DNA of 64,000 nt from an uncultured Geobacteraceae bacterium (GTDB taxonomy: Bacteria > Desulfobacterota > Desulfuromonadia > Geobacterales > Pseudopelobacteraceae). Below the pieces are notes generated by a model. That model was not told the origin of the DNA and made no database searches. It worked only from the letters and a program-made list of their open reading frames with translations. The DNA lies in assembly GCA_903901875.1 (NCBI GenBank), contig CAIUSO010000050.1:1-64000 (forward strand), given 5' to 3'. Shown here one piece after another: positions 15,618 to 17,430 of the stretch. The number at the start of each line of letters is the position of its first letter. The stretch's first letter is position 1. The position numbers were made by a program, and so were the translations under genes.

Positions 15618-16001
15618 ATGGCGCGAATCCTTGTAATTGATGACCATGAACAGATCAGAACCATAATCCAGTTACTGTTAACCGGTGACGGCCATACGGT
15701 TGATATCGCCGAGGATGGTAAGATCGGTTTGAAAATGGCCCGTGAATTCGATTACCAACTGGTGATCACCGACGTTATGATGCCGAATCAGGACGGTCTG
15801 GAAGTGGTGACAAAGCTGAAAAGAACCATACCGGGGATTGGTATTATTGTCATAACCGGCGGGGGACCGAGGGTTGATCTTACCGACCTGACGGAAACGG
15901 CCCGCTTGCTCGGAGCCGACAGTATACTCATGAAAGCACTTGATTTTGAACAGTTACGGAGTGTTACCGCAGAAGTGCTCGCCACATACGGCTATGTGTG
16001 A
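15618..16001 (+). CDS. single-domain response regulator
   Basis: 127 aa with aaagga about eight bases upstream of its ATG. It is a CheY-like receiver with the DD pair in VIDDHEQ, phospho-Asp in ITDVMMP and a Thr-containing VITGGGPR strand. The usual Lys-Pro pair is MKALD, with Lys kept and Pro replaced by Ala. There is no output domain. It is a close relative of the receiver at 58506-58883 in the other block, sharing YQLVITDV.MP and ITGGGPR.DL. It probably shuttles phosphate to or from the hybrid kinases just upstream. The next gene is separated by the riboswitch leader. Confidence 0.9.
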   Translation: MARILVIDDHEQIRTIIQLLLTGDGHTVDIAEDGKIGLKMAREFDYQLVITDVMMPNQDGLEVVTKLKRTIPGIGIIVITGGGPRVDLTDLTETARLLGADSILMKALDFEQLRSVTAEVLATYGYV

Positions 16002-16018
16002 TTTCCTGCTTTTGGTGA

Positions 16019-16045
16019 TGGACAATACGTATTTTTCATTATAAG
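16019..16045 (+). promoter_or_regulatory. candidate promoter for the riboswitch-MCP transcript
   Basis: TGGACA at 16019-16024 and TATAAG at 16040-16045 resemble -35 and -10 boxes, but the spacer is only 15 bases. A promoter is expected here because the aptamer starts about 30 bases downstream. The exact boxes are a weak guess. Confidence 0.3.
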
Positions 16046-16074
16046 ATGTACGTTTGAATGAACAAACCGCATTA

Positions 16075-16201
16075 CCTCTTATGTACAATGGCAAATTCAG
16101 GGTAACCTGAAGACGCAAAGCTACGAGTCCCGACGGGGGATAGTCGGGTTATCGGAAGAGGGTTGAACTACGACCCTTCTATCAATTGACTGAAGGGTCG
16201 T
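16075..16201 (+). promoter_or_regulatory. c-di-GMP-I (GEMM) riboswitch upstream of the MCP gene
   Basis: The aptamer can be folded by eye. P1 is CCTCTT (16075-16080) with AAGAGG (16156-16161). P2 is TTCAGG/CCTGAA closed by a GNRA-type GTAA loop. The conserved ACGCAAAGC core and P3, CCCGAC/GTCGGG, follow. In the ATGGCAAA segment the base aligned to the ligand-contacting G20 of the Vibrio Vc2 aptamer is G, favouring c-di-GMP over cGAMP. Downstream, ACGACCCTTC (16170-16179) pairs with GAAGGGTCGT (16192-16201). An alternative stem, GAGGGTTG (16158-16165) with CGACCCTT (16171-16178), overlaps both P1 and that hairpin. Ligand-stabilised P1 would therefore favour the downstream hairpin. Its U-tract is poor, so termination versus another mechanism is open. 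The MCP start codon is about 50 bases further on. Confidence 0.85.
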
Positions 16202-16251
16202 TGACGTTTGTCGGCGGTCGTGCTCATATTCACCATATCAAAGGAGAACCT

Positions 16252-17430
16252 ATGAACTTTTTTTTAGAGTTGTACCGTGGGCTTACCGTCAGAATCCGCA
16301 TCATATCACTTGGTATCTGTTACAACCTGTGCATATTGGTCGCCGTCGGTGTTGGACGTTCCCTCTCGCTCAATTACGCCATCGCCTCAACGGCGCTGTT
16401 CATCTTTCTGGGCACACTGTTCTGCTGGCTCCTCTTCTGGTCGGTGAATGAACCGTTACAGCGTATCCTTGCCTACCTTGGCAAAATGACCAGTGGCGAT
16501 CTTACTCAGCAGATATCGGCCAAGCGAAATAATGAAATCAGTGTCATTATCCGTTCCATCGGCAGTCTGCAGAGTACCATGCGGGATATTATTTCCCACA
16601 TCGCCGAATCATCGGCCAAGGTTTCCGGAGAGTCCCGTCTTCTCCATGACCGGTCTGAAAAAATTGCCGTCGGTGCCGATCAGGTCGCCGATCAGATTGC
16701 CAGTATTGCCACTGCCGGTGAAGAGATGTCGGCCACCTCCGGCGACATCGCCCACAGTTGTCATCAGGCGGCCGATGGTGCGAGACGTGCTTCGGAATTG
16801 GCCAATAATGGCGTGGGGGTGGTAGGAAATACTGTCACCGTCATGGGGCAGATTGCCGAACGGGTGCAAAATTCGGCCATGACCGTTGCCAGCCTGGGTG
16901 AACGCTCAAACCAGATCGGTGACATCATCAGTACCATTGAAGATATTGCCGATCAGACGAACCTGCTGGCCCTGAACGCCGCCATTGAGGCGGCCCGGGC
17001 CGGTGAACAGGGAAGAGGTTTTGCCGTCGTTGCCGATGAAGTTCGCGCGCTGGCCGAACGGACCACGCGGGCCACGAGGGAAATCGGGGTGATGATCAAG
17101 GCCATTCAGCAGGAAACCCATAACGCTGTTTCGGTGATGGAACAGGGGGTAAATCAGGTCGCCACCGGTACCATGGAGGCGGAAAACTCAGGGCGTGCCC
17201 TGCAGGAGATCCTCCAGCAGATTAATAATGTGGCCATGCAGGTGAACCAGATTGCCACCGCTGCCGAAGAACAGACGGCAACCACCGGTGAGATTGCAAA
17301 AAATATGCACCAGATAACCGATGTGGTCCAGCATACCTCCTCCGATGCCCAGGCTTCGGCCACGGCAGCGGGGGAGCTGAATGGCAACGCTGAGGAACTT
17401 CAGCGCCTGGTTCATCGTTTCAAGCTGTAA
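16252..17430 (+). CDS. methyl-accepting chemotaxis protein with minimal membrane sensor
   Basis: 392 aa from the ATG at 16252, which has an aaaggag site; the frame is open back to 16186 but that lies inside the leader hairpin. Two hydrophobic helices (about 18-40 and 44-66) are separated by only a few residues, so there is essentially no periplasmic ligand domain. A HAMP-like segment ([21 protein letters not shown]) leads into a full MCP signalling domain with the conserved hairpin tip [32 protein letters not shown] written across residues about 245-270. Gln/Glu-rich adaptation helices offer substrates for the CheR-CheB protein at 25754. Expression appears to be gated by the c-di-GMP riboswitch just upstream. 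It could sense membrane state or energy, or relay signals from partner proteins. Confidence 0.92.

Follow-up and report, generated by a model that had tools for sequence, protein, structure and literature searches.

Control of methyl-accepting chemotaxis proteins (MCPs) by riboswitches of the c-di-GMP-I class (GEMM-I) has already been published for Bc1, which precedes mcpE in Bacillus thuringiensis; the same report describes Bc1 as frequently located upstream of MCP genes and as responding to c-di-GMP in vivo little if at all (PMC11218506). For Cd1 of Clostridioides difficile, a scheme of four strands (P, A, T and H) with OFF logic has been described (PMC9262584), and Geobacter relatives have been reported to harbor 16 or 17 GEMM riboswitches (PMC4914508, PMC6456294). 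Hence, the 18 RF01051 aptamers identified in the 4.3-Mb draft genome analyzed here are unremarkable in number. One of them lies in the window, by which we refer to the whole 64-kb stretch of DNA under analysis, where it constitutes a genuine GEMM-I riboswitch in the leader of a chemoreceptor gene (Table 1).

The aptamer and its ligand pocket

The Rfam match in the window leader covers the complete RF01051 model (positions 1-87 of 87; 61.2 bits against a gathering threshold of 35; E 1.6e-9) and is the sole gathering-level Rfam match in the 64 kb. This bears out the riboswitch family assigned in a sequence-only reading of this DNA, and the P1, GNRA-capped P2, core and P3 elements described there were all found in their places in the sequence and the Rfam alignment. 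In particular, both hallmarks of GEMM-I, the capped P2 and the GACGCAAAGC core, are present within 16096-16121. The score falls in the middle of the range observed for the genome (58.0-67.3 bits, except for L018 at 42), and by eye the window aptamer carries one extra nucleotide between the last G on the P1 side (16083) and G20 with respect to most sister copies. A recent origin as a copy of a sister riboswitch was considered and discarded, the best DNA match elsewhere reaching 78-80% over some 105-120 bases.

Table 1. Features of the window leader and its downstream gene, in window coordinates.
Feature	Position	Strand	Evidence
Promoter-like site TGGACA-17-TAAGAT, 5' of the riboswitch	16019..16047	+	Consensus scan, 9/12; spanned by a 36-nt block, 88.9% identical in the riboswitch-free leader of the relative
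P1, 6 bp, closing the aptamer: P strand 16075-16080 with A strand 16156-16161	16075..16161	+	Sequence; folding probability 0.93-0.97 at transcript ends 16162-16172
c-di-GMP-I (GEMM-I) aptamer	16080..16156	+	RF01051, 61.2 bits, gathering 35
G at the Vc2 G20 position (ligand contact)	16090	+	Rfam model position 11
P2 hairpin, 6 bp, 16096-16101 with 16106-16111, GUAA (GNRA) tetraloop	16096..16111	+	Sequence, Rfam alignment
Conserved core GACGCAAAGC	16112..16121	+	Sequence, Rfam alignment
Short P3 tip UCCC/GGGA, 16128-16131 with 16137-16140	16128..16140	+	Sequence
U at the Vc2 C92 position (pairs with the second base of the ligand)	16152	+	Rfam model position 83
A:T stem, 16158-16165 with 16171-16178, 8 bp (6 Watson-Crick and 2 G-U), alternative to P1 and hairpin	16158..16178	+	Folding probability 0.64-0.96 at ends 16176-16198; A-T matching, 40 leaders
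T:H hairpin, 16170-16179 with 16192-16201, 10 bp, all Watson-Crick, no U-tract	16170..16201	+	Sequence, pair check, folding
Shine-Dalgarno region AAAGGAGA of the MCP gene	16240..16247	+	Sequence
MCP, 392 aa; HAMP, MCPsignal; two hydrophobic stretches with a very short loop (by eye)	16252..17430	+	Pfam; start agrees with the gene of the relative

Positions 20 and 92 of the pocket follow the Vc2 numbering. The register was cross-checked on the pilM aptamer, in which the corresponding base is A14 and J1/3 reads G74-C75 before C76 of P1 (PMC6274999). A c-di-GMP-selective GEMM-I pocket combines G20 with C92, of which the window aptamer presents the former at 16090 and a U at 16152 instead of the latter; the G at 16090 also sets it apart from GEMM-Ib (cGAMP) aptamers, which are defined by A20. 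Given a G20/U92 rather than a G20/C92 pocket, c-di-GMP is not to be assumed as the ligand: judging from the bases themselves, G20 would speak for c-di-GMP and U92 may leave room for cGAMP. G20 and C92 have been described as less conserved than A47 (PMC9049102).

The pocket was compared across 98 aptamers, comprising the 18 of this genome and 80 of the 399 matches found elsewhere in the genus (a total of 417), a survey biased toward high scores because the 80 were taken from the top of the ranking. Positions 20/92 were read as G/C in 43 aptamers, A/C in 19 (one of which, L083, starts at a contig end and is a misreading, being G20 by eye), G/U in 17, C/C in 9, G/G in 9 and U/C in 1. It is conceivable, if rather unlikely, that the window pocket prefers 3',3'-cGAMP over c-di-GMP, with U92 pairing the adenine of the ligand, and such a preference would fit either of the main readings of the switch itself that are weighed below. 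The recurrence of G20/U92 in 17 of the 98 aptamers indicates a natural pocket rather than a one-off, and related Geobacter are described as using cGAMP riboswitches (PMC6456294). On the other hand, G20 characterizes the c-di-GMP-selective variant, the A20G change being reported to turn a cGAMP riboswitch c-di-GMP-selective (PMC6456294), and U is able to wobble-pair with G, the C92U mutant of Vc2 having been crystallized (PDB 3MUR, 3UD3; PMC10671752).

Two further pockets were observed in the survey. C20 occurs together with C92 in five aptamers of this genome (L001, L002, L003, L007 and L008) and in L061, L068, L096 and L108. In the Rfam register, nine related aptamers (L098, L102, L103, L104, L109, L112, L113, L126 and L129) read G20/G92, and in the three that were inspected in full (L098, L102 and L104) CACAAAGC replaces CGCAAAGC. 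These nine might form a distinct subgroup or might possibly reflect a shift in the alignment.

Exclusive stems and the output of the hairpin

The 8-bp A:T stem overlaps P1 at 16158-16161 and the T:H hairpin at 16171-16178, and the mutual exclusivity of the three stems, proposed in the sequence-only reading, is thus real, as a check of the shared strands and their pairs confirms. The P:A, A:T and T:H pairings also succeed one another as they would in a Cd1-type OFF switch. When growing transcripts starting at a presumed 16054 were folded in silico in the absence of ligand, P1 was dominant at ends 16162-16172 and was replaced by A:T at ends 16176-16198, with the probabilities given in Table 1; from 16200 onwards P1 was back (at least 0.93) alongside T:H (at least 0.89). 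Since the complete ligand-free RNA also ends as P1 plus T:H, any regulation must occur during transcription. The finished RNA is predicted to adopt an identical fold whether or not ligand is bound, and by that prediction the hairpin alone is no report of ligand binding.

Nine leaders were folded likewise, and the order of P:A, A:T and T:H was recovered in six of them (L013, L010, L004, L003, L016 and L064). In L015, A:T persists and T:H is only weak, and in L005 and L009 no P:A pairing was found within the strand limits used, so that the P/A/T/H scheme is not uniform. Among 1000 dinucleotide shuffles of 16157-16251, one contained a Watson-Crick hairpin of at least 10 bp, 115 allowed the A region to form an 8-bp stem and none contained both. 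The 8-bp stem is therefore weak evidence by itself and its support comes from the sister leaders. In 40 leaders chosen by their A-strand sequence, pairing of A with its own T averaged -10.46 kcal/mol versus -9.68 kcal/mol with the T of other leaders, the observed mean for own pairs being reached in 20 of 2000 permutations; the same comparison for P:A revealed no better matching within leaders than after permutation (1815 of 2000 reach the observed value).

The sequence-only reading had also pointed to the lack of a good U-tract, and a consensus terminator scan of 15950-16330 indeed returned no intrinsic terminator. The window leader (2.01), L016 (1.77) and L009 (0.91) have the three lowest U-tract scores of the 41 leaders scored. 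A low value for L069 is an artifact of the wrong hairpin having been picked. The T:H hairpin of the window is consequently not the hairpin plus U-tract of an intrinsic terminator. A Shine-Dalgarno-sequestering riboswitch was also considered and rejected on the basis of predicted access, the unpaired probability of the Shine-Dalgarno region, some 40 nt past the hairpin, being 0.51 with P1 and T:H forced and 0.50 with A:T forced. By these predictions, the window hairpin cannot be classed as a canonical terminator or as a sequestrator, and it may instead be a relic, or an attenuator that is weak or aided by a factor.

Automatic scoring detected a U-tract hairpin in 87 of the 98 leaders, and its presence at the end of T:H in most sister leaders points to termination as the ancestral output. 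The 11 leaders that failed the automatic rule are L013, L016, L067, L074, L077, L089, L092, L103, L104, L108 and L110, of which L077, L089, L103 and L104 show U-rich tails by eye; L009 passed only by virtue of an A:T-like stem, its true output being at the Shine-Dalgarno. In L009 (1-1579, reverse strand), which also precedes an MCP gene, the H strand is located at the Shine-Dalgarno sequence (AGGGG), which stands six bases upstream of the ATG, and translational versions of the strand scheme hence exist in this genome. By eye, only the window leader and L016 among the 98 leaders combine a strong T:H hairpin with the absence of a U-tract and a spared Shine-Dalgarno. L016 likewise precedes an MCP gene and has its hairpin in the place of T:H, but differs from the window leader in its A20/C92 pocket and in a 20-bp hairpin with a duplex energy of -38.5 kcal/mol, as opposed to 10 bp and -16.6 kcal/mol. 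Outputs other than a U-tract are found by eye at three of the six MCP genes under these riboswitches and at none of the rest, an excess that was noticed post hoc.

The chemoreceptor gene, its sisters and the nearest relative

The product of the downstream gene is confirmed as a chemoreceptor, as first read from the sequence, by its Pfam matches (MCPsignal, 179.5 bits; HAMP, 26.6 bits), and by eye it is nearly devoid of a periplasmic part. It is located in a row of signaling genes that includes hybrid kinases, a single-domain response regulator and a CHASE/MASE1 kinase. The reading frame extends without a stop from the ATG back to a TTG at 16186, within the hairpin loop; the ATG at 16252 is favored because it coincides with the gene start in the nearest relative. 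The promoter consensus scan returned two sites versus 0.6 expected. The second, TTGACG-18-CATATT (9/12, 16201-16230), begins where the U-less hairpin ends and would bypass the riboswitch, although it may be a chance match. A paralogue of the MCP (G000 contig C84:116-1162) is 66% identical over 158 residues and presents one TGA inside the matched stretch.

MCP genes lie downstream of six of the 18 aptamers (that of the window, L005, L007, L009, L012 and L016), or of six among 17 assessable leaders, given that no gene follows L002 within its contig; the genome holds 45 matches to the MCP signaling domain, a few of which are pieces of one gene. Among the 80 other leaders of the survey at least one (L057) precedes an MCP gene, a lower bound because eight of them have fewer than 900 bases downstream and more distant signaling domains would be missed.

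The nearest relative conserves the gene order around the window MCP, with a response regulator 93% identical, an MCP 90% identical and both flanking kinases. Its MCP leader is some 138 bases shorter and lacks the riboswitch, while keeping the 36-nt promoter-like block (89%), and none of its eight RF01051 matches lies at this gene. In a similar vein, no RF01051 riboswitch was found at its counterparts of the L007, L009, L012 and L016 MCPs, which are 81-86% identical over their N-terminal part, and that of L007 also retains the promoter block. The L005 riboswitch is the only one of the six at MCP genes to be shared with the relative (87% protein identity). The absence of four of the other five, besides that of the window leader, suggests that riboswitches at chemoreceptor leaders have turned over recently. 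Gain in the window lineage would be the simpler reading and is favored over loss in the relative, for five of the six MCP sites are empty there while the neighborhoods of three of its eight riboswitches (L180, L183 and L185) match those of L005, L015 and L014. A riboswitch conserved at this MCP was discarded, no RF01051 match being found in 35 loci with relatives of the gene (L020-L054). These loci say little on ancestry, however, since they include duplicates (L020 and L049 being a single gene). Beyond the nearest relative, they also lack the neighboring response regulator, for which L028 alone shows a match, weak and unrelated.

Proposed attenuation, possible decay and known systems

The aptamer match, strands, in silico folding order and absence of a U-tract are observed, and ligand, direction and effect are inferred; we give slightly less than an even chance to a working OFF switch that acts by transcription attenuation. 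In such a switch the ligand would stabilize P1 (P:A), A could instead pair with T in an antiterminator-like stem, and T could pair with H. With the polymerase at around 16176-16198, unbound RNA would flip from P1 to A:T, whereas bound ligand would hold P1 and free T, so that T:H forms immediately behind the polymerase. As the hairpin is not followed by the U-tract that an intrinsic terminator requires, its proposed role is that of an attenuator, either weak or assisted by NusA or Rho, which would reduce readthrough into the MCP gene. The prediction of the sequence-only reading that c-di-GMP favors the hairpin and lowers MCP expression is thereby retained in its direction, given that a ligand-stabilized P1 would free T for the hairpin. 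In view of G20/U92, c-di-GMP is a candidate ligand, and the lowering of expression is a prediction, the hairpin having no U-tract, Shine-Dalgarno access being equal and the ligand-free RNA ending as P1 and T:H as well.

The attenuation OFF switch is supported by the RF01051 score, the folding order and its recurrence in six of nine leaders, the A-T matching, the U-tracts of the sister leaders and the Cd1 scheme. The lack of a terminator, the low U-tract score, the non-uniform scheme, the null P:A matching and the ligand-free P1 plus T:H fold argue against it, and its absence in the relative deprives the window platform of support from conservation. Several of these observations would also suit a decayed platform, in which the U-tract has been lost, the aptamer still folds and expression of the gene is locked in the ON state; the riboswitch would then be in the course of disappearing, or would never have been well connected here. 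We regard decay as a serious rival while leaning against it: the missing U-tract, the unusual U92, the extra nucleotide before G20 and the riboswitch-free leader of the relative all agree with it, and ligand-independent expression after a terminator mutation is a reported precedent in Geobacter (PMC6456294), but the aptamer score is mid-range among the 18 sisters, the hairpin is uneroded and exceeds in length the stems of several sisters (6-9 bp), and L016 presents a second long U-less hairpin at an MCP gene. Translational or mRNA-stability control, in which T:H or a competing structure would alter the access of ribosomes or RNases rather than transcription, has its parallel in L009; we consider it very improbable for the window, where the Shine-Dalgarno lies well past the hairpin with equal access in both states and the complete RNA settles as P1 and T:H without ligand.

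A broader and quite unlikely proposal is that, within the divergence of the two species, chemoreceptor leaders have time and again acquired GEMM-I riboswitches whose pockets differ, and that in the window leader and L016 a longer U-less hairpin has replaced the intrinsic terminator as a U-independent output, through pausing or factor-assisted attenuation, the level of the second messenger setting which chemoreceptors are made. If the switch does work, an intracellular cyclic dinucleotide sets the amount of a chemoreceptor and couples the choice between settling and swimming to sensing, a coupling known in outline from Bc1 and mcpE. The 18 aptamers also amount to a natural experiment in which one strand scheme is combined with varied pockets (G20, A20, C20 or U20; C92 or U92) and varied outputs (U-tract, Shine-Dalgarno or U-less hairpin), with a relative that is empty at five of six chemoreceptor sites. 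Such matched leaders permit comparisons of how the ligand is chosen, which type of output is used and how riboswitches are gained.

Regarding the systems described previously, and as far as their reports set them out, the window riboswitch shares with Bc1 a c-di-GMP-I aptamer in an MCP leader and hairpins far from the ribosome-binding site, but Bc1 has two terminators, each followed by poly(U), in place of a single U-less hairpin. With Cd1 it shares the OFF logic of P:A, A:T and T:H, predicted in the window, and a T:H compatible with the bound aptamer; Cd1, in contrast, ends in an intrinsic terminator, and the window pocket is G20/U92. The GEMM-Ib (cGAMP) riboswitches of Geobacter, such as those of pilM and pgcA, likewise belong to RF01051 and to related bacteria, yet they present A20, are ON switches and have the A strand inside the terminator, instead of G20 and a separate T:H hairpin (PMC9262584, PMC6456294). 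What is unusual here is the occurrence of a U-less T:H hairpin twice in one genome, both times at MCP genes, together with the empty leaders of a close relative.
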